NCBI RefSeq assembly: GCF_009834345.1
Contig: NZ_CP035042.1
Span: 2,170,001 to 2,234,000, forward strand
From: Billgrantia tianxiuensis
Lineage (GTDB): Bacteria; Pseudomonadota; Gammaproteobacteria; Pseudomonadales; Halomonadaceae
DNA: 64,000 bases
Direction of reading: 5' to 3'
A program made the position numbers and the translations under genes. Positions within the stretch are counted from its first letter, which is position 1. Each line of letters begins with the position of its first letter. Shown piece by piece: positions 10,400-25,219 of the stretch. Under the pieces are notes generated by a model, which saw nothing but the letters and a program-made list of their open reading frames with translations, had not been told where the DNA came from and searched no databases.

Positions 10400-10427
<28 letters not shown>
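8865..10427 (+). CDS. tyrR: TyrR/PhhR family transcriptional regulator of aromatic amino acid metabolism
   Basis: 520 residues in the TyrR architecture: an N-terminal ACT domain (about 1-75, starting MRLRFHCQNRIGILRDI), a PAS domain (about 80-180), a sigma-54-type AAA+ domain (about 205-430, Walker A GETGTGKE near 236, Walker B GGTIFLDEVGEM), and a C-terminal Fis-type helix-turn-helix ending at 520. The sigma-54 contact loop GAFTGA reads GAFEGA here, so classical sigma-54 activation is doubtful; TyrR of E. coli likewise acts at sigma-70 promoters. The ATG at 8865 follows a GGAGG site and places the ACT domain correctly. It is divergent from phhA, and its 3' end overlaps recQ by 28 bases. Confidence 0.93.
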
Positions 10428-12400
<1,973 letters not shown>

Positions 12401-12455
12401 GTGGGCACTCCCTGCGCAGTTGTTTTACGTACCGTTTTTTCGAAAGGCGGAGGCC

Positions 12456-13031
12456 ATGGCGACCACCGGACGCACATTCTCGCATATCGTCGGTTTCGAC
12501 GATTGTCCGTTCCCGCGCGGCCATCGCGGCGATGTGCCCATCGTCGGTACGGTGTTCTCGGGGCTGCGCCTGGAGGGGGTGCTTTCCGGCAAGGTACGCC
12601 GGGATGGCGCCAACAGCACCCGGGAGCTCATTCGCCTGGCCGGCAGTTCGCGCTTTGCCGCGCATCTGCAACTGATCATGCTGCAGGGCGTCGCCCTGGC
12701 CGGTTTCAACGTCATCGACGTGCCGCGCCTGCACGCCGAGCTGGGGCTGCCGGTGCTGGTGGTGGCGCGCCGGGCACCGCGCCAGGGTGGCATGCGCCGG
12801 GCCCTGCTCGAGCGCATTCCCGGCGGTGCCCGCAAATGGGCGCTGGTCGAGCGTCTCGGGGAGATGGAGCCACTGGCAGGCGTCTACGTTCAGCGCATGG
12901 GATTGAGCGCGGAGGAGGCGGCCGCGGCGATTCTCGCCACCACGCCCCATGGCAGCGTGCCCGAGCCGCTGCGCGTGGCGCACCTGATTGCCGGCGGGGT
13001 GGCCACGGGGGAGAGCAGCGGGCGCGTGTAG
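12456..13031 (+). CDS. DUF99 family protein (endonuclease V-like fold)
   Basis: 191 residues. DUF99 proteins share the RNase H-like fold of endonuclease V, but no function is established. Seen: FSHIVGFDDCPF near the N-terminus, where the conserved GFDD/GIDD motif carries the acidic pair, then a VPIVGTVFSG strand, QLIMLQGVALAGFNVIDVPRLH, and the basic-residue loop VVARRAPR. The ATG at 12456 follows GGCGGAGG and removes an unrelated N-terminal stretch. It is divergent from recQ with about 55 bases between them, so the two may share a regulatory region. Confidence 0.8.
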   Translation: MATTGRTFSHIVGFDDCPFPRGHRGDVPIVGTVFSGLRLEGVLSGKVRRDGANSTRELIRLAGSSRFAAHLQLIMLQGVALAGFNVIDVPRLHAELGLPVLVVARRAPRQGGMRRALLERIPGGARKWALVERLGEMEPLAGVYVQRMGLSAEEAAAAILATTPHGSVPEPLRVAHLIAGGVATGESSGRV

Positions 13032-13906: not shown

Positions 13907-15448
13907 ATGACCGCCTGGAGCAAGCTGCTGATCGCCACGACGCGGCTGATCGACCTGCACGACAGCGCCCACGAGCCCGGCTCTCCCTTCGTCCAGGTGA
14001 GCCAGGAGCAGCGCCGTGGCCTGCGCGACGGCTATTGGCTCGACCTCGGCTGCCTGCTGCTCGACTACCTGCTCGACGAGGACTTCGCCACCAACAGCGC
14101 CTTCGTCTCGCAGAGCCGCTGCCTCAATCACCTGCGCGAGGTGTACCCGGGGCTGCCCCACGACGACCTGAGCTTCGTCATCAACCTGCTTGCCACTCCC
14201 AGCGAGATCCACTTTCGGCAGCCGTCGCCATTACCATCGCCGACCACGGGCGACGACGCGGCGGCAGAGGAGCGCAGCCGGCGCAGCACCAAGCGCACCG
14301 CGCTGATCGAGAAGCAGGGCCAGACCGGCCAGGTGCGCCTCACCCCGAGCGGCCGCCAGGCGGTGACCCTGGCCAGCCAGGTCGAGGACCTGCTCTACTC
14401 CGAGTACGACGCCGCCAAGGTGCTGGCGGCGCTGGCGCGGGGCGATTTCGCCCGTATTCCCGACATCACCAACCAGATCCTGCTGGCCATCCGCGCGCTG
14501 ACCCAGGAGCTGCGCCGGGTGCGCGAGAACCCCACTCGCGAGGGCAAGCTTTCCGCGCTGCTCGACAACGAGCGCCACTACCACAACGCCCTGACCAACA
14601 TTCAGCAGACCCTGCTCGACGCCCGCGCCCAGCTCGCCACGCCGCGCCTGATGGAGCGCTTCGAGAGCTGGCGCGAGGCGCAGTCCGACGACTGGGACCT
14701 GCGCGTGCTCTCCGGCGCCATCGGCCGCGTGCTCACCGCCATCGAGAACCTCTCGCGGCGGCTCTCCGAGCTCTTGGCCGATATCGCCGAGGGGCGCATC
14801 CAGGCCATGGGCGTGATCGACTTCCAGGACATGGCGCGCCAGCTGCTCGAGGCGCCGCCCGCGCCCGCGCTGCGCGATGCCGTGGTGGCGCGCATGATGC
14901 CGCTGCACGTGCAGGCCACTTTCCCGCGCCTGGCGCCGCTGGTGCCGCTGCTCGAGAGCCGACGCGCCGACGTCAGCCCGGTGGCGCTGGTGTTCGACGA
15001 GGCGCGCGACGCCGCCCCCGAGGACCCGCTGCTGGCGCGCTTTCTCGAAGCGCGGGGGCCGGCGCTGCGTCAGCGCATTCGTCGCGCGCCGCTGTCGCTG
15101 CCCGAGGCGCTGACCGAGGGCTGGCACCGCTTCGAGGAGGGCGACTGCCTGGCCCAACTGCTCAACACCTTCGTCGATACCGAACTGCTGGCCCCGGGGC
15201 TGACGGTGGGTATCGACGCGACGCCGTTCGAGCTCGAACTCGACGACGGCCGCCGCATCGAGGGGGCTGTGACCCCCTCTCTCGGCTTCTTCTCTCTACA
15301 GGCGCCCGAAGCTGCGCCGAACTCCTTACAGGCGCCCGGGACCGCGCCGAATTCCTTACAGACGCCCGAAGCTGCGCCGCATTCCTTGCAGGCGCCCGCT
15401 GCCGCGCCTAACGACATATCGCGCATCGATCAGGACGAGCCAGTATGA
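13907..15448 (+). CDS. Kleisin-like subunit of a MukBEF/MksBEF/Wadjet-type SMC complex (JetA/MksF-like)
   Basis: 513 residues. First gene of a three-gene operon whose third gene is a giant SMC ATPase, so it is inferred to be the kleisin bridging the SMC heads. Seen: an N-terminal helical domain (about 1-100), a winged-helix-like part near residues 125-165 (TALIEKQGQTGQVRLTPSGRQ), long amphipathic helices through the middle (about 170-330), and a C-terminal domain. The C-terminus carries three and a half near-identical 10-residue repeats of the type SLQAPEAAPN. The start ATG at 13907 follows AGGGAAG; the stop overlaps the next start in an ATGA. Assignment rests mainly on operon context and size; homology is inferred, not measured. 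Confidence 0.65.
   Translation: MTAWSKLLIATTRLIDLHDSAHEPGSPFVQVSQEQRRGLRDGYWLDLGCLLLDYLLDEDFATNSAFVSQSRCLNHLREVYPGLPHDDLSFVINLLATPSEIHFRQPSPLPSPTTGDDAAAEERSRRSTKRTALIEKQGQTGQVRLTPSGRQAVTLASQVEDLLYSEYDAAKVLAALARGDFARIPDITNQILLAIRALTQELRRVRENPTREGKLSALLDNERHYHNALTNIQQTLLDARAQLATPRLMERFESWREAQSDDWDLRVLSGAIGRVLTAIENLSRRLSELLADIAEGRIQAMGVIDFQDMARQLLEAPPAPALRDAVVARMMPLHVQATFPRLAPLVPLLESRRADVSPVALVFDEARDAAPEDPLLARFLEARGPALRQRIRRAPLSLPEALTEGWHRFEEGDCLAQLLNTFVDTELLAPGLTVGIDATPFELELDDGRRIEGAVTPSLGFFSLQAPEAAPNSLQAPGTAPNSLQTPEAAPHSLQAPAAAPNDISRIDQDEPV
15301..15420 (+). repeat. In-frame 30-bp tandem repeat in the kleisin gene
   Basis: Three and a half copies of a 30-base unit (15301, 15331, 15361, 15391) encode SLQAPEAAPN-like decapeptides near the protein C-terminus. 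The copies differ by a few bases. It is a Pro/Ala-rich linker likely to vary in length between strains. Confidence 0.85.
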
Positions 15449-16284
15449 ACATGACCGAGATGGGCGAAGTGGTCGCCTACCTGCTGCGCTACCGCAGCGC
15501 CGAACGCACCCCGGGCGGCGGGCGCAAGCGCCGCGCCGCCCGCGAGGGCCAGCTCTCCGAGCGCGACGTCTGCGCGCTGATCGACGACGCCAGCGAGGCC
15601 GAGCGCGAGGCGCTGCGGGATTTCCTGGCCGGCCAGGGCCTGCGGCTCAAGGCCTTCGAATCCGGCGACTATCCCGGCATCGCGCCCGGCTCGCGCTACT
15701 ACGCGCTGCTGCCCGACCCGGAGCTGGAGCAGCCGCCGCTCTACACCCGCGAGCCGGTGTTCGAGGCGCTCAAGCTGCGCCAGGAGAGCCGCGCCGAGCT
15801 GGCCCAGTGGTACCTGCAGCTGTGGCTGCTGATGCACACGCTGCTCTACACCCGTTACAACCGCGCGCTCTCCGACGTCAGCCGCTACCAGGAAGCCACC
15901 TTCGCCGGAGCCGAGCTGGTCGAGCTGATGCGCGACCAGTTGGAGACGCTGCGTAGCCTGGGCGAAGAGGCGCCGGAGAGCAGCCGCGTGCTGCTGGAGG
16001 AGCGCGGCGAGGACATCAGCCGCCGGGTGCGTGCCTTCATCGACCTGCAGGTGCGCGCCGGGCTGCTCGAAGGCCTGCGCGACGCCGAAGCGAGTGCCGG
16101 CGCCGAGGAGAGCGTCGGCGAGGTATGGCAGCAGACCCTGCTCGGTGCGCTGGAGAGCGAGCAGATCGGCATCCATCAGCTCGGCCACCTGCAGGCGTTG
16201 GCTCAGGGGCGTGCCCAGGGCCGCTATCGGGATGAAGACGCGTACGAGGCCGACATCGACGAGCACGAGGAGACCCAGGCATGA
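15445..16284 (+). CDS. Kite-like subunit of the SMC complex (JetB/MksE-like)
   Basis: 279 residues, all-soluble and acidic. It overlaps the kleisin stop by four bases (ATGA) and its own stop overlaps the SMC start in the same way, so the three proteins are probably translationally coupled. The position between kleisin and SMC and the size fit MukE, MksE or JetB kite subunits. Seen: an N-terminal helical segment, then GSRYYALLPDPELEQPPLYTREPVFEALKLRQESRAELAQWYLQ, a helix-rich middle, and an acidic C-terminal tail. No catalytic motif is visible. The role is inferred from gene order. Confidence 0.6.
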   Translation: MNMTEMGEVVAYLLRYRSAERTPGGGRKRRAAREGQLSERDVCALIDDASEAEREALRDFLAGQGLRLKAFESGDYPGIAPGSRYYALLPDPELEQPPLYTREPVFEALKLRQESRAELAQWYLQLWLLMHTLLYTRYNRALSDVSRYQEATFAGAELVELMRDQLETLRSLGEEAPESSRVLLEERGEDISRRVRAFIDLQVRAGLLEGLRDAEASAGAEESVGEVWQQTLLGALESEQIGIHQLGHLQALAQGRAQGRYRDEDAYEADIDEHEETQA

Positions 16285-19200
16285 GCGTGATCAACCGCAT
16301 CGAGGTCGCCAACCTGCTCAACAAGCACGGCGACGTGGCCTCGCCCTGGGACGCCAAGATGCGTCACCTGCTGCTCGACCTGCGCGGCCAGTCGAGCGCC
16401 ATCAGCATGGAGAACGGCTTCGGCAAGACCACGCTCTCCGAGGCGCTGATCGGCCTGCTGTCGCGGGACCGCACGCTGCTCTCGCGCACCCGGCGCAAGT
16501 GCTCGCCCTCGGCGGTGGGCGGCACGGCGCGTAGCTGGAGCCACCTGCGGGTGGAGTTCCGTTCGCGCAGCGGGCTCGAACGCCAGGACGACATGCTCGC
16601 TGCGGCGGGCGAGGAGGTGGCCGGCGAGACCTTCGTGTTCGGCTTCTACGGCTACAGCGACGGCAGCGGGCTCTCGTTCTACCACTATGCCGGGCGTTTC
16701 GAAGACGTGCCGGTGCATCACCTGACCCTCGACGGCAAGCTAGCGCTCTACGCCAACCGCGACGTCAAGGCGGCCATGGCCGAGCGCGGCGTGCGCCTGA
16801 CCCACAACCGCGAAGAGTGGCTGGAAGCGGTGGGCGCCCACGTCTCCCGTCGCGAGCTGGCCCAGCTTGCCGCCTTCCAGAAGGAGGGCGGCGCCGACAA
16901 GAGTCAGATCTTCAATGCCATCAAGCCCCGCGCCGGCGAGAAGGCCGACCAGGCGTTCTTCTTCGAGGTGCTGGCCCCCGAGATCCTCTCCGGCGCCACC
17001 CGCGGCGAGACCGACGAGAGCGAGGAGCTGATCGAGGAGGTGATCCTCAACTCCGGCACCAACATCACCGAGCTGCGCCATCGCCTGGAGGAGGCCGAGA
17101 GCGACCAGCGCCGCGCCAGCGACAAGGTGGTGCGCCTGGCCGAGCTGCGCGAGCAGGGCGAGTCGCTGCGCGACGCCCGCACCCGCCTGATGGAGCTCGA
17201 CCAGGGCCTGGCAGCCAGCGAAGCCTTGCTGGGCGGGCAGGCGCTGCTGGGCCTGCCTGGGCTGCCCCGCGCCGCTGCCGAGAATGACGCCGAGGATGAC
17301 GCTGAAGAGCGCGGCGTCGCTCCGCTGGATGGCTTCGCCTGGATCGCCGGCGATACCTCGCGGCCGCGGGTCTCCACCTCGTTATTGGCGACCCTATCGG
17401 GGCTTTCCGAACGGGCCGTGCGTCAGGCGCTCTCCGAGCGCGGCGCCCGGGTCGATGTGCACCGCCGGCTGATTCACCTGCCCCAGGCCGAGTGGCCGCT
17501 CAACCGCGACGTCGGCCACGTCAGCTTCAAGGCTGCCCGCGAGTGGCTGGCCGAAAGCCATGCCCTGGCCGACGATACGGCCCGCGACCGCGCCCTGAGC
17601 GCGCTGGACGAAGGCGCCGACGCTTTCGAGGCCGCCGACGGCAACCGCTTCCGCGAGGAGGTGATAGGCGACGGGGTCTATCTCGAGGAGCTGACCCGCG
17701 AACTCGCCGAGCTGGACGAGCGCCGCGACGATCTGGAGCACGAGCGCGAGCGGCTGGAGTCCCAGCAGCGCGACTTCGTCGACAACCAGAGCTTCTACAC
17801 CCAGGCGCTGGCCGAGGGGCTGTTCAGCGAGGCCGAGCTGGAAACCCCCGAAGCCAGCGCCGAGGCGGCCAAGGCCGAGGCCGCCGACGCTCGCCGCGCC
17901 CTCAACGCGCACCTGGGCCGTGTCGGCGAGCTCAAGCAGTTCGCCGCCTGGCACGACGCCTACCGACGCGAGTGCCCGGGTACCGCACCGGCCGAGCGGC
18001 TCGAGGAGAAGCTGGAGCGCGAGGCCGAGCTGGCCGAGTCCCTCGACGAGCTGACCCGGCGCCGCGACGAGGCGCTCGGCACCTTCGAGACCGCCCGGGC
18101 CGAGCGTGAGCGGCTCAACGGCGAACGTGAACGTCTGAGCGGCGAGCAGGGCCTGCTGGCCCGCGGCCAGGCTCCCTGGCGCGCCTTCGTCGAGGGCTGG
18201 CCGGGCGAAGAGGTAAGCGGCTTCTGGACGCGGCGCAAGACTGCGCTGGCCGAGCTGGAGTCGAACTGTCGCGAGGCCGAGCAGCGCCGTCAGGAGGCCG
18301 AACGCACCCTGGCCCGGCTGGCACCGCTGGCCGAGGCCGCCCGTCGTTACGCTGAGCTGCACGGCGACGACGAGCCGGTGCACCTGCGCGCCCGCCTCCG
18401 CGAGACGGAGCGCGAGTTGGGTGACGAGCGCAAGCGGCTGCTCGATGAAGAGAACCACCTGCGCACGCTGCACCGGGCGCGGCTCGACTTCGCCGAGCGC
18501 AGCGAGCTGAGCCCGGAGAAGTGGCTGGCCGACGCCCGGCGTCGCTACCCGCGGCTGCTGCGCGAAGCGGAGACGCTGGAAGCCGACATCGCCGCCCGCG
18601 AGCGCTACCTGGAGAGCCTCTCCGGCGATCCGCTGGAGCGGCGCGTGGTGGAGGCCGAGGCCCATCGCCAACTGGACGACGCCGGCATCGCCTGGCAGCC
18701 GCTGCATGCGGTGCTCAACGTCGAGACCCATACCCCCGAACAGCGCCGCGAGTGGCTGGTGCAGGCCGCCGGGTGCTGTTCGCCCCGGTGGTGGCCGGAC
18801 GCGAGGCGGCCGAGTCCGCCGCCACCACGCTGATCGAGGCGGGCCTGGCGGTGCCGGTATTCGAGGCCGAGGCACTGACCGGCCTGCTGGCCCGGGGCGA
18901 ACCGCCCCTGGGAGCGGTGGCCGGCGTCGAGACCCTGGCGGTGAAAGCGGCGCTGGACCCGAGCTACCTGGAAGCGCTGCGCGAGGCCACCGAGAAGCGG
19001 CTGGACGCCGACCGCGAGCGGCAAAAGGCGCTGGCCGTGGAATGCGAGCGGCTCGACCCCCACGGCGAAACCTTCTCCCTGGCGCTGCGCGCCCGCGAGG
19101 CCGACGAGGCCCAGGTCGAGATGGCGCTGGAGGCCCTGGCCGAGCGGCAGGCGGCGCTGGCCGAGCGCGAGGCGGCGCTGGCGCCGCGGCTCACCGATGT

Positions 19201-21193
19201 CGCGTTCGCCTGTATCGACGACTACCAGCGCTACCTGCAGGAGGGCGGGGAGTTCGCCCAGCAGGAGGCCGCCGAGGCGCGGCTCGAAGCCGAGACGGCG
19301 CTGGCCGAACTCGCACCGCGGCGCGAAGCGGCGGCCCGCGAGTTGGAGGCCCATGGCCAGACCTGGCTCGCCGCCGAACAGTTCAGCGACGCCGGCGGCG
19401 TCGAGCGGCTGCAGGCGCTAGAGGCGCGCCTCGCCGAACTCGAACGCCACCTGAATGAGGCGAGTGTACGACTGGCCGCCGCCGAGGAGCAGCGTGAGAC
19501 GCTCAAGCGCCAGGTGGAAGAGACCGAGGCCCAACTGCGCGGCATCTTCAGCGACGGCGAGCGCGACCGTCTGCGTGCCCTGGCGCGCTTCGAAGCGGAA
19601 GGCGGCGTCGACTTCATGGTCACTGCCGCCGAGGTGCAGGAGGAGCTGGAAGCCGCTCAGGCCCGGGCGACCCGCCGTGCCGACTTCGATTTCACGCGAA
19701 TCCGTGCCTACCTGGAGGTGCGCGATGCCGCCGGAGGTAGCCAGAAGCTCGAGCGCGAGATCGCCCGGGTGCGGCGCGAGCTGGGCGAACTGCGCGAGAC
19801 GCGCAAGGCGCGGGGAGAGGAGCGCGACGCCCTGGAGGCACGCCTGGCCGAGCAGCGTCGGGCGCTGGCCTGCATCGATCAGCTGGCGGTGGAGTGGCTG
19901 CGGGTGCTGCGCGACCTGCCCGAGGGCTGGCCACGGCGCCTGGCGGCGCTGGTCGATCTCGCCGAAGCTAGCCGCTGGCCCGGGGAGGTGGATGAGCACA
20001 CGGCACGCAACGCCGCCCTCGTGGCCTGGCACGACATGGTCGGCAGCGAGGGGCAGGGCGAGCTCGACATCGAAGCGCTGGAAGCCTGTCAGCAGACCCT
20101 GGTCGATGCCCTGGGCGAACTCAACCTGGGCGAGCAGGCGCGCAACCGCGAGCGCCAGGCGCGCCAGGTCGACGGCGGCGAGCGCAAGCTGGCCGAGGCC
20201 CTGGCCGAAGCGGCCCACAGCCGCATGTTCAGCGACACCGAGCGTGCCCGCCTGGCCGGGCTGACGCATGCCAGCGCCGAGGCGCTGGACGACCTCTCGC
20301 GCCTGCACGACCAGCTTGCCGGCCAACTCGACGACCACAAGATACGGGTCGAGCGGCTGCACGCCTCTCGCGAGCAGATCGAAGGCACCCTGGTGGAGCG
20401 CCTCAGCTCGATCATCTCGGATGCCGCCGGCAACCTCGACATCCTCAAGCGCGTGGCCAAGAGCAGCGGCGAGGGCGGCGCCTTCTTCGAGGTCAAGGCC
20501 TCGCTGATCGGCCCCGACCAGCTGCGCGACCTGATTGCCACGCTGCTGGCCGACATCGACGAGCACCAGGCGGCCATGCGCCGTCGCGCCGAGCGCGACG
20601 GCGGCATGGTCGACGGCGAGGCGCGCCGCCGTGACGACGACCTGCTGCGCCAGATCCGCCGGCGCATCTACCGCGGGCTCTTCCACGACGTGGCGATCCG
20701 CCTCAAGCACGACGCCATCCGCCCCCATGGGCGGCTGTTCTCGCTCAACGAGGAGATGTCGGAGGGCCAGCGCGAGGCGGTGTCGCTGATGTGGCTGGTC
20801 AAGCTGTCGGAATTCGCCATCGAGCGTGAGCTGCGCGAGCTGCCGGGGCACCACCGCCGCCGCGCCCGCACCAGCCGCGAGAGCGTGATCCTGCTCGACG
20901 GCCTGTTCTCCAAGCTTTCTCACCGCCGCCTGATCCAAGACTCACTGGAGTCGCTTCGCAACACACGCGGGCGCTTCCAGATGATCGGCCTGATCCACAA
21001 CCCCAACTACGAGAACGACCCCGACATCTTCCCCACCTACCTGGTGGGCAGCGTGATCGGTGGGGCCCAGGGACAGGGCGGCCACGTGATGGTGCGCGAC
21101 GGGCGCATCGCTGCGCCGGAATCGCTCGGCCGCAGCGCCGGCGAGGCCAGCCTGTTCGGCATTCACGTCAGCGAGCCAGCGACCCAGGAGTAA
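16281..21193 (+). CDS. SMC/MukB-like ATPase (JetC/MksB-like), one frameshift
   Basis: About 1637 residues once one base is restored near 18776, where a GCCGGGTG run drops a base; on the two sides the protein continues as WLVQAAG and VLFAPVVAG. Seen: an N-terminal head with the P-loop-like MENGFGKT (residues 43-50), coiled coil, a globular insert (about 330-460) with a winged-helix-like stretch, coiled coil, a hinge-like domain around residues 820-900, coiled coil, then the C-terminal head with MSEGQREAVSLMWLVK (signature, from about 20756) and VILLDGLFSKLS (Walker B, from about 20886). The usual first Gly of Walker A is Met, and the Walker B Glu is replaced by Gly. Third gene of the operon. 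Longer than MukB (1486) and far longer than typical MksB. Confidence 0.7.
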
Positions 21194-21216
21194 GCGATTC
21201 GGCTTTTATGCCGAAC

Positions 21217-21247
21217 GAGCCAGGCCAGGGAAGCCCTGGTCTGGCTC
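21217..21247. terminator. Strong hairpin after the SMC operon
   Basis: A 14-bp stem GAGCCAGGCCAGGG / CCCTGGTCTGGCTC with one mismatch and a 3-base loop, just after a smaller TTCGGC / GCCGAA hairpin at 21199-21215. No long T-run follows; it plausibly ends the SMC operon. Confidence 0.6.
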
Positions 21248-21342
21248 GGAGGGGAGTGGCAACGAACCTACGTGAGCGGTAGCAAGGGAAAAGGCTGGCG
21301 GGCCTTTTCCCTTGCTAAATAGAACATGGAACAGGACATATC

Positions 21343-21887
21343 ATGTTGCGCACCTTGCTGTATGTCGGCGGCCTGCTGGCCGTTCTGTTCTTTGGCTTCA
21401 GCCTGTATGGCAAGGCCGCGCCACGTTTTTTCCCGCCAACCGTGCCTGACATGGCGCCGCCCAGCCAGCGTGCGGACGCTATTCATGTCATCAAGTCCGA
21501 GCGTGTCATGCGGCTGCTGCGGGAAGGCGAGGTCATAGAGGAATACCGCATTGCGCTTGGCGGCAACCCGGAAGGACACAAGCAACAGGAGGGCGATCAA
21601 CGTACGCCCGAAGGGGAGTACCTCATCGACTGGCGTAACCCACGCTCGATTGGGCATCTCTCACTACATGTCTCCTATCCCAATGAGCATGACCGAGCGG
21701 TAGCGCACGAGCTTGATGTCGACCCGGCGGCAACATCATGATCCACGGCATACTCAACGGCTGGGGTTGGCTGGGAAGGCTGCACCGCTACTGGGATTGG
21801 ACGGATGGCTGCATAGCGGTTACCAATCAGGAAATGCGGGAAATATGGTCTCTCGTTCCCAATGGCACTCCAATAAGCATAAAGTAA
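21343..21887 (+). CDS. L,D-transpeptidase (YkuD domain, YafK-like), one frameshift
   Basis: About 181 residues when one missing G is restored at about 21725 (CCGGCGGC for CCGGGCGGC). An N-terminal membrane anchor (about 4-22) precedes a YkuD domain, which makes or attaches peptidoglycan through 3-3 cross-links or lipoprotein ligation. The frame breaks between DVDP and GGNIMIHG; after it come the catalytic His in MIHG and the Cys in WTDGCIAVTNQEM. Both catalytic residues are therefore present in the sequence, only in two frames. The protein would end at TAA 21885-21887. Confidence 0.85.
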
Positions 21888-21930: not shown

Positions 21931-22914
21931 CTAACTCTCGCCTGGCGACGGGTGCTTGACCAATTCCGGTGGCACCCAGACGGAGATGATGAAGCCCTCA
22001 TCTGGATCGAAGCGGGCGGGATCAAGCAGGGCGTTGCCGTACTCATGCATGAACCATTCGGTGACAGCAGGCGAATAAAGCTGGTCGATCCGTGTGGTGA
22101 TCTTTTTCCGTGCTTTGGTGAGCATCGCTTCTAACGACTGCTTTCCCTGATAAGCCGTGGTCAATTTACGTCGCGCTGGGTAGCCCAAATCGGAGACATA
22201 GACGGCATAACTATCGGACTCAGGCCCATAGCGACGGACCCGCACTTTTAGCTTTGGAGGGCGGAGTGCGTCGAAGCGCGCATTGATCTCGGCGAGTTTT
22301 GCCTTGATTTCCTCGTCGGATAAAGGAGGGGCATGCGGTAGCACATCGGGAACTTCATCAAGTAACTCGGGGTGGAGCTGCCGCGACACGGTGTCGGCGT
22401 AATCATGAAAGGTCAGGAACTTGGCTGGCAATTCGGCCAGCCATTTCTCACGGAGAGCCAAGGCCTCCGCCTTCGCTCCCTCTTCACCGTATTTCCGAAC
22501 CGAGAAACGGCGACGCTTCATGCGTCCTTGGGTGCACAAGTAGACACGCCACTCACCGGCGGCGCCGGTATCCGTGCGGTACACTCCTGAAATGCCGCTT
22601 TTGTTGTTCTTGCGTATTTGGGTGGCCTTCTCCCGGTTGATGGTTGGGGGAAATGCGGCAGTGATGGCATCCCGATAGGCGCGCGCCATGGCTTCGGCGG
22701 CATCAGCCGAGCCATACACTTGATCCTTGAACAGTCGATTGATGCGATGTGTGTAGCGCCGGATGTCCACGCACCAACCCCCTAGACGATGTCCCTTGGG
22801 TTCTTCGCGCCTCAAGGCGTAGTCGGACATGCTGAGCGCATTGTCCTGTTCCGGTGGAAGGACAGTCTCGGCAGGGAGTGTGGGTAAAGAGGATGGGTCG
22901 TTCATGATATTCAT
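21931..22914 (-). CDS. AP2/ERF-like DNA-binding protein with about three AP2 repeats
   Basis: 327 residues. Seen: a central AP2-type domain at about residues 107-165, with the pattern KNNKSGISGVYR...GEWRVYL...RRRFSVRKYGEEGAKAEALALREKWL that is diagnostic of the family, an N-terminal partial copy (about 46-88, GWCVDIRR...RLFKDQVYGSADAAEAMARAYRDAI), and a third weaker copy (about 220-275, LKVRVRRYG...YAVYVSDLGYPARRKLTTAYQGKQSLEAML). Bacterial AP2 domains usually occur with HNH homing nucleases or phage integrases; no nuclease domain is seen here. It is divergent from vgrG across a 197-base region with a palindrome, which suggests but does not prove regulation of the island. Confidence 0.8.
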   Translation of the reverse strand: MNIMNDPSSLPTLPAETVLPPEQDNALSMSDYALRREEPKGHRLGGWCVDIRRYTHRINRLFKDQVYGSADAAEAMARAYRDAITAAFPPTINREKATQIRKNNKSGISGVYRTDTGAAGEWRVYLCTQGRMKRRRFSVRKYGEEGAKAEALALREKWLAELPAKFLTFHDYADTVSRQLHPELLDEVPDVLPHAPPLSDEEIKAKLAEINARFDALRPPKLKVRVRRYGPESDSYAVYVSDLGYPARRKLTTAYQGKQSLEAMLTKARKKITTRIDQLYSPAVTEWFMHEYGNALLDPARFDPDEGFIISVWVPPELVKHPSPGES

Positions 22915-23111: not shown

Positions 23112-25219
23112 ATGGCGGATGCCACGGGGCTGCAGTTCACCCTTCATTTGTTGGGGGGCGACGAGCTGGACTTGGCCGTCACCTCCTTCAAGCACCACGA
23201 ACACCTCTCGAGGCCTTTTTGTCTGGAGGTCAAGTTTGCCAGCCGGCACGGCGACCTGTCGCCCCTCGACTGGCTGGATCGCAATGCCAGCTTGCGCATT
23301 TACCAGGACGGTCAGGAGTTGCGCCGTATCAACGGTATCGTAGCGGCTTTCCACCGTGGCGACCGGGGGCATCGGCGCACCTACTATGAAGTCACGATTC
23401 GTCCTGCGTTATGGCGGTTGTTCCTGCAGCAAAACTGTCGCATTTTCCAGCATGTCACGCCCCAGCAGATCATTCAGACACTGTGTGAGGAGAGTGGTAT
23501 ACAGGAAGTTGCCTTCGCGCTGACTCGCGACTGGCAGGAGCGAGAGTTCTGCGTGCAATATCGCGAGGATTCGCTGAGCTTTATCGAACGCCTGGCAGCT
23601 GAAGAAGGCGCGATTTACTTTCACGAGATGGAAGGAGACATCCACCGGGTGGTCTTCTGTGATCACCCTCAATTGCTGGCCCAGCTGGGAGAGCGTACTT
23701 ATCATGGGCGTAGTGGAGGGAATGCCCCTCAGCGCCATCTTCGCAAGCTGATCCAGGCCTCTCAGATCAAACCGTCGAGTGCGACCCTGGAAGACCTGAC
23801 TTTCAAACATCCGGGTCATGAGCAGATTCATCGTTACGACGAGCCGAAGCTGTCTGCCCATGGCCAGCGGGATGGCTATGAATACTACGACTATCCCGGT
23901 CGCTTCAAGCGGGATGCCTCGGGAGTGCCCTATACCCGGATTCGTCTGGAGCACCTGCGCAATGAAGCCTACCTGGCTCGGGCAGAGAGCGATCTGCCCG
24001 AGCTGTGCCCAGGAAAGCGCTTCACGCTGGAAGCGCATGACATCGACGAGTTCAACAGCGACTGGCAAGTGGTAGGTGTCGTGCACACGGGCACCCAGCC
24101 TCAGGCCGTGGCGGAGGAGGCGGTAGGCATCACCAGTGCCGACCGCTCGGGTATGGTCGATGCCACCCATTACGAGAACGATCTGGTCCTGATTCCCGGC
24201 GACCGGGCCTGGCGACCTGCTCCCAATCCCAAGCCGCGTGTCGAAGGGCCACAGATTGCCACGGTGGTGGGACCCGAGTCGGAAGAAATCTACACGGACG
24301 AATATGGTCGGGTGAAGCTGCGCTTCCATTGGGATCGTGACGGTACACCGGATGAGCGAGCCAGTGCCTGGGTGCGCGTTTCCCAGGGCTGGGCGGGCGG
24401 TAGCTACGGCATGCTGGCGCTACCGCGTATCGGGCACTCGGTGGTCGTCGACTGGCTGGAGGCCGACCCCGACCAGCCGTTGATTACCGGGCGTGTCTAT
24501 GATGCTCGTAATCTCACGCCTTATCCGTTGCCGCAGCACAAGACCCGTACCACGATCCGCACCCAGACCCATAAGGGCGTTGGCTTCAATGAACTTAGGT
24601 TTGAAGACGAACAAGGCAGCGAAGAAATCTACCTGCATGCCAGCGTGACCACAATACCGTCATCCAGCACGACGAAACGCACAGCATCGGCAATAACCGT
24701 AGCAAGTCGGTGGCGGTGGATCAATCCGAGAGCATCGGGCAGGACAAGAGTTCGCGTGTAGGCCGCGACCACACGGAGAGCATCGCCCAAGACGTCAAGA
24801 AAGACGTTGGGCGGGATGTTTACTACAGCGTGGGCCAGAGCCAGAAAGAGCGCTATGGCAAGGATGTGCTCCAACAGATTGGCAACACCTTGAAGCAGGA
24901 CATTCACGCCGATCACTTGGTCAATGTCGGCCGTAACGTCAACGAACGGGTGCAGGGCCAATACGTGTTGGAAGTCACCGACTCCATCACCAACAATACG
25001 CGCCACCACAAGCTCATGGCCTTCGAGCGCTTCGAAATCCGAGGGCCAGGCGGCAAGATCACCCTGGATGCCGCCGGGATCACTCTCGAGGCGCCCAACA
25101 TTCGCATCAAGGGCAACCTCACCACCGGTGGCTCTGGCTCCTCCAGCGTGCCGACGCTCTCGGGAGCGGCCAACGAAGCGCTGCCGCTTTGTGAAGAGTG
25201 CGAGAAGCTCAAGACATAG
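23112..25219 (+). CDS. vgrG: Type VI secretion spike protein VgrG, one frameshift
   Basis: About 702 residues after restoring one C at 24641-24642 (GCATGCCAGC for GCATGCCCAGC); the frames join as EEIYLHAQRDHNTVIQHDETHSIG. VgrG trimers cap the Hcp tube and carry effectors. Seen: the N-terminal gp27-like part, the mid-protein FHWDRDGTPDERASAWVRVSQGWAGG motif, the gp5-like OB fold, and a C-terminal beta-helix with repeated SIGQD/NVGRNV stretches ending in a Cys-containing tail. A GGGAGG site precedes the ATG. No other T6SS structural genes are present, so it is an orphan VgrG island. Confidence 0.93.

Follow-up and report, generated by a model that had tools for sequence, protein, structure and literature searches.

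We analysed a 64,000-nucleotide stretch (hereafter the window) of Billgrantia tianxiuensis, comprising positions 2170001-2234000 of contig NZ_CP035042.1 in a single-contig genome of 5.0 Mb, and focused on an operon encoding a kleisin-like protein, a KITE-like protein and an SMC-like ATPase. This is probably a divergent, Wadjet (JetABCD)-like jetA-jetB-jetC operon, whose jetD gene was deleted down to a 38-codon stub in the lineage of the window. Judged by comparison of sequences, the case is strongest in two respects: JetD is absent repeatedly, leaving stubs, while selection on the remaining genes is retained; and the catalytic Glu is missing throughout the family.

The operon and the remnant of jetD

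The original prediction had described a three-gene kleisin-kite-SMC operon with four-base ATGA overlaps, akin to MukFEB/JetABC and followed by a hairpin and an L,D-transpeptidase. The coordinates and the kinship were borne out, with ATGA overlaps at 15445-15448 (kleisin/kite) and 16281-16284 (kite/SMC start). Directly 3' of the SMC stop lie hairpins (z -7.8; equal stability in 0 of 200 shuffles), and downstream of them an L,D-transpeptidase fragment that matches YkuD. The hairpins fall inside a jetD stub. The accompanying claim that no nuclease or toprim-type fourth gene is present therefore stands for an intact gene, but not for the 38 codons at 21206-21319, which showed 60.5% identity over 38 aa to the N-terminus of JetD from Billgrantia zhangzhouensis (E value 2e-7) and scored 49.3 bits, versus 29.6 bits for the best of 300 shuffled copies. 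With JetD being a stub, the four-gene kleisin-KITE-SMC-JetD layout is absent from the window. The features are as follows (ORF, open reading frame).

13907..15448 (+): kleisin-like protein in the JetA/MukF position, 513 aa; ORF from the ATG at 13907
15293..15397 (+): kleisin C-terminus with a repeated (S)LQAPxAAP-type tail; most of 25 other alignment rows are shorter here
15445..16284 (+): KITE-like protein in the JetB/MukE position, 279 aa; ORF
16281..18833 (+): SMC-like ATPase (JetC/MukB position), reading frame 1, with the N-terminal head and coiled coil 1; the match to relatives ends near 18773
16407..16430 (+): Walker A (P-loop), MENGFGKT
18521..21193 (+): SMC-like ATPase, reading frame 2, with coiled coil 2 and the C-terminal head; an assembly indel is the probable cause of the frame break
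20756..20779 (+): ABC signature motif, MSEGQREA
20891..20920 (+): Walker B, LLDGLFSKLS; on alignment by eye with the DEAFSKMD of ordinary JetC, the catalytic Glu is replaced by Gly and the D-loop Asp by Ser
20978..21004 (+): QMIGLIHNP, which we take to be the switch-histidine segment, assigned after ABC ATPases
21206..21319 (+): jetD remnant, 38 codons near the gene start; everything else has been deleted, the toprim part included
21216..21318 (+): two long hairpins within the jetD remnant

The same shortened DNA arrangement was observed in Billgrantia aerodenitrificans (86% over 731 bp), and so the jetD deletion is no accident of this assembly. Another relative (locus L105) has JetD in full, with the transpeptidase region after it. 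By its operon genes, the nearest row to the window is Billgrantia desiderata FB2 (99% over 1571 columns).

JetD and selection among relatives

Scanning for the peptide patterns MENGFGK and MSVINRIE yielded 74 loci from named genomes, a set that is unusable for counting P-loop conservation. The kite gene lies upstream of SMC in all 74 and the kleisin gene in 73, the remaining locus (L075) starting too late for it. Two loci (L052 and L089) end too near SMC for a JetD call and were left out, which leaves 72 resolvable loci. JetD directly follows SMC in 24 of these, starting between -19 and +30 bases from the SMC stop, with a four-base overlap in 11 of the 24. The JetD match is stop-free over 346-379 codons in every one of the 24 loci. 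All six scanned members were above the Pfam cut-off for JetD_C (PF09983), and all six matched PADLOC JetD1 (best E value 2e-22). Two features characteristic of toprim domains, a Glu and an Asp-x-Asp, are invariant in 18/18 JetD rows and would represent the catalytic residues. As for the 50 other loci, two carry JetD stubs (L045 and L110), 46 show no JetD, and two end too early. These observations overturn the reading of the system as JetD-less by nature: JetD is the fourth gene in one third of the resolvable loci and was deleted in the lineage of the window. Homologous operons that always carry JetD, which the original prediction had named as evidence against itself, were not what we found either, JetD being present only in some. 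We considered and rejected the idea that another nuclease stands in for JetD downstream of SMC in the loci that lack it; the recurring neighbours that were scanned, a subset of all neighbours, were CMAS, GGDEF, thiamine-binding, globin, LysR, DUF2955 and PBP-like proteins.

Among 275 genomes of the family, kite was found in 80 and full-length JetD of this kind in 24, leaving 56 kite genomes without it; the absences are approximate, as the scan scored part of the first-look candidates per genome (at most nine for kite and seven for JetD) and contig ends were unchecked. All 24 JetD genomes were among the 80 with kite, and JetD lay 4.9-5.4 kb from kite on the same contig. Short, weak JetD matches in seven further genomes, two with kite and five without, were not counted. 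JetD presence requires at least 14 changes on a tree of 75 rows, 13 of them forced by starred branches, the tree being a quick one with no bootstrap and with a long-branch warning. The divergences of JetD and SMC were correlated over the 24 loci (r 0.87; 0 of 2000 permutations as high), and over 22 loci when two from Endozoicomonas were left out (r 0.86). JetD is present in two of the four loci on the Endozoicomonas branch, and was not found in Oceanospirillum (two resolvable loci), Terasakiispira (one) or Halotalea (one).

SMC or its distant relatives appeared, among 72,556 plasmid records, only in two near-identical records of one Pseudomonas aeruginosa megaplasmid (NZ_MT732184.1, 223996-248856), as a truncated relative with DGLFSNLS beside an annotated JetD; no plasmid record with kite was found. 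That stretch of the megaplasmid also carries a Tn3 transposase and mer genes. No match was present in 50,697 phage records, and no match was confirmed in viral contigs. When 398 genomes drawn from the phylum were compared with a distant relative, four matched: the genome studied here, two of the same family, and a doubtful one (E value 6e-4, internal stops).

Repeated loss of JetD with retention of the SMC ring is favoured by the stubs, by the presence of kite in all 24 JetD genomes, by the correlated divergence, and by JetD in Endozoicomonas and beside the plasmid relative; the changes on the tree would mostly be losses, perhaps with single gains among them. The ratio of nonsynonymous to synonymous substitution rates (dN/dS) of SMC was 0.058-0.136 in 10 JetD-less pairs and 0.051-0.205 in eight JetD-bearing pairs, all hand-picked from the tree, with dS above 1 for SMC in two. 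The values for kite and kleisin were 0.05-0.24, except for a kleisin value of 0.35 in a near-identical pair (dS 0.01). Purifying selection in the JetD-less pairs shows that the three genes left serve some purpose visible to selection. We rejected the idea that this operon is the sole condensin, since ScpA is present in the same genome and in 48/48 good genomes.

ATPase motifs, kinship and neighbourhood

The original prediction that Walker B has no catalytic Glu was upheld. The pattern DGLFSxL[S/T] occurred in 87 of 88 close-family proteins and in 33 of 34 wider-family proteins newly counted among the matches listed (120 of 182). Asp-Gly stood at Walker B in 120/120 proteins covering the motif among the matches listed, a count that overstates the rarity of other residues since the searches pick proteins by shared five-residue words, the wider one from the Walker B region itself; the two misses end before the motif. 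By contrast, Asp-Glu (DEAF) was found in 7/7 ordinary Wadjet/Mks SMCs from relatives in the same genus or order. The Walker B Gly is thus an old trait, shared by operons with and without JetD. Loss of the Walker B Glu has a precedent: according to PMC10586767, LmuB of Lamassu generally lacks it and has Gln instead.

The predicted Met in the P-loop was confirmed, MENGFGKT being present at 16407-16430, but it proved to be only a clade trait. It occurred in 84 of 85 close-family proteins with the region, the other (P0093) having Ala, and the distant relatives mostly have Ala or Leu (Ala in 20, Leu in eight, Gly in one, Met in one and four outside the pattern, for the 34 wider-family proteins among the matches listed). 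In Halomonas beimenensis the P-loop reads MENGFGRT, with Arg for the otherwise kept Lys, and the operon still has JetD. Without the catalytic Glu, ATP hydrolysis would be slow. For Corynebacterium glutamicum, PMC10123090 reports that the activity of MksG in vitro did not depend on hydrolysis by MksB.

Searches of Pfam, NCBIfam and PADLOC with the four window pieces gave weak matches only. Neither DUF3375 (JetA/MksF) nor DUF4194 (JetB/MksE), nor the MukB N-terminal family PF04310, was matched by the window proteins or the source genome; the window proteins gave no match to the MukF/MukE Pfam families, and profile-profile comparison none against JetA/JetB. Among PDB sequences, the SMC profile matched nothing other than coiled coils and helical proteins (best E value 0.013). 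In Foldseek, the KITE model was nearest to Wadjet JetABC chains and the kleisin model matched MukF best, both weakly, in tables that are second looks at Foldseek's own list, so that a family missing there is not thereby excluded. The models weakly suggest a KITE fold and a MukF-like kleisin fold.

Among known systems, the operon shares with Wadjet (JetABCD/EptABCD/MksBEFG, types I-III) the order kleisin-KITE-SMC-JetD, a JetD_C/toprim nuclease in one third of resolvable relatives, a KITE model that is weakly nearest to JetABC chains, and the Walker B region alignable by eye to DEAFSKMD. It differs in its missing DUF3375/DUF4194 similarity, in an SMC of about 1630 aa versus 1121-1217 aa in the seven ordinary ones compared, in the Gly that replaces the catalytic Glu, and in the absence of JetD from most members. 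Like MksBEF of P. aeruginosa, it has three genes and no nuclease in the window as sequenced, the SMC frame break aside; unlike MksBEF, it belongs to other sequence families, and closely related species differ in whether they have JetD, with stubs in some. MukBEF is similar in its long SMC and in being the best, if weak, match of the kleisin model, yet the genome has no MukB (PF04310) match, the proteins have no MukF/MukE Pfam match, and relatives have JetD. Literature searches on Wadjet with Halomonas/JetD or Halomonadaceae found no paper, and among the matches listed for Walker B of JetC, the loss of JetD and the types of Wadjet, no title or abstract opening describes this family.

The operon (13907-21193) has a guanine-plus-cytosine content of 71.2%, versus 63.5% in the whole window. 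Upstream of it, a RecQ-type helicase and an Endo_dU family protein are encoded at 10400-13031, and a cluster with RecQ-like ORFs recurs upstream of the operon in relatives. Between the operon and the VgrG region, an ORF of 327 aa (21931-22914, minus strand) gave a weak AP2-domain match (E value 2.6e-6) under the curated cut-off. In one JetD-bearing clade (L058, L062, L063 and L079, the last from H. beimenensis), about 100-540 extra bases separate the kite stop from the SMC ORF, in place of the four-base overlap of the others. Gammaproteobacterium MFB021 carries the operon twice, near-identical, on two contigs of one assembly (L074 and L075), possibly as an assembly duplicate.

Alternative readings, mechanism and meaning

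The SMC had originally been presented as a single gene of about 1637 aa. As assembled it is interrupted, its two ORFs (16281-18833 and 18521-21193) not sharing a frame, and a full-length SMC in the window strain is assumed; comparison with the closest relative placed the frame change near 18773. Occurring together with the jetD stub in one copy, the two frames could indicate a decaying, dead Wadjet, with JetD deleted and JetC broken by real mutation. However, SMC forms a single open frame in 12/12 relatives fetched first and in 73 of the 74 later loci, with JetD present or not, at 1604-1669 aa after trimming of upstream extensions (the exception, L092, has 1094 aa). The same assembly also breaks rpsL, which we take to be an essential gene, and one tuf copy (36 universal genes compared with Escherichia coli K-12), as well as two genes of the window: in VgrG (23112-25219), Gp5_trimer_C is split over two ORFs, and in the L,D-transpeptidase (21343-21741), YkuD breaks off at position 53 of 146, both through frame changes of the kind that an assembly prone to indels would show. 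The closest relative supplied 22 matched ORFs, of which 11 were full, eight partial (seven covered 87-95% and one 18%) and three broken, including SMC. Completeness of the assembly is 95.2%, versus at least 97% for 48 of 57 listed relatives. The open frame in 73/74 relatives, together with the broken rpsL, tuf copy and VgrG, is strong though indirect evidence, and makes an assembly indel the most likely cause of the break, and a dead Wadjet unlikely. Programmed frameshifting was rejected on account of the open frame in those relatives.

It has also to be weighed whether the operon is a nuclease-free condensin of the MksBEF/MukBEF class by nature, with JetD as an occasional late addition. JetD is missing from 46 of the 72 resolvable loci, with two more stubs; the phage records gave no match and the plasmid records partial matches in only two; SMC is under purifying selection without JetD; the kleisin model is closest to MukF; and passages of PMC10123090 read the patchy MksG elsewhere as horizontal transfer. 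We nevertheless regard such an origin as quite improbable, given the stubs in the window, L045 and L110, the JetD genes in half of the Endozoicomonas-branch loci and beside the P. aeruginosa plasmid relative, the joint divergence of JetD and SMC, and the finding of full-length JetD in none of the 195 kite-less genomes of the family, five of which have short, weak matches. A Lamassu-like sensor of the Rad50/LmuB type, which would sense DNA by ATP-gated clamping and not by extrusion, would fit the general lack of the Walker B Glu in LmuB, and weak PADLOC LmuB matches were obtained (E value 2e-4 at best in the window). These better matches fall in the presumed coiled coil and not in the head domain; the distant relative P0093 gave an LmuB match at the P-loop (E value 0.025). 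The kleisin and kite partners and the JetD nuclease are Wadjet parts, and excerpts of PMC10586767 describe LmuB as short (about 650 aa, versus about 1630 aa here), with Gln and not Gly, and with other partners. We regard such a sensor as very unlikely.

We return to the reading of a divergent Wadjet that lost jetD. In the proposed mechanism, the SMC dimer would close an ATP-bound kleisin-KITE ring on DNA. The absence of the catalytic Glu would slow hydrolysis, giving a slow motor or an ATP-gated clamp. Where JetD is present, the complex might mark small circles for cutting. Where it is absent, the complex might hold or compact DNA, acting in plasmid silencing or as an accessory chromosome condensin beside SMC-ScpAB, a nuclease-free role likened to that of MksBEF, which is thought to act so after JetD loss. 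A bolder form of this proposal, which we put forward only tentatively, is a separate Wadjet-like class whose Gly Walker B makes it an ATP-gated DNA clamp and not a hydrolysing loop extruder, which shed JetD at least a dozen times in Halomonadaceae and their kin, and whose nuclease-free complex was kept for a second job.

A proposal set out in PMC10586767 derives MksBEF from a plasmid-cutting Wadjet that lost JetD, with a similar origin possible for MukBEF. If our bolder form is true, the family would offer natural replicates of the presumed transition from plasmid-defence complex to chromosome condensin. As sister species differ in having JetD or not, and as stubs persist and the ring is still under selection, the role of a nuclease-free JetABC would be testable in close pairs. 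Loss of the catalytic Glu across an SMC family, even beside JetD, would challenge the need for a fast ATP-driven extruder in plasmid recognition.

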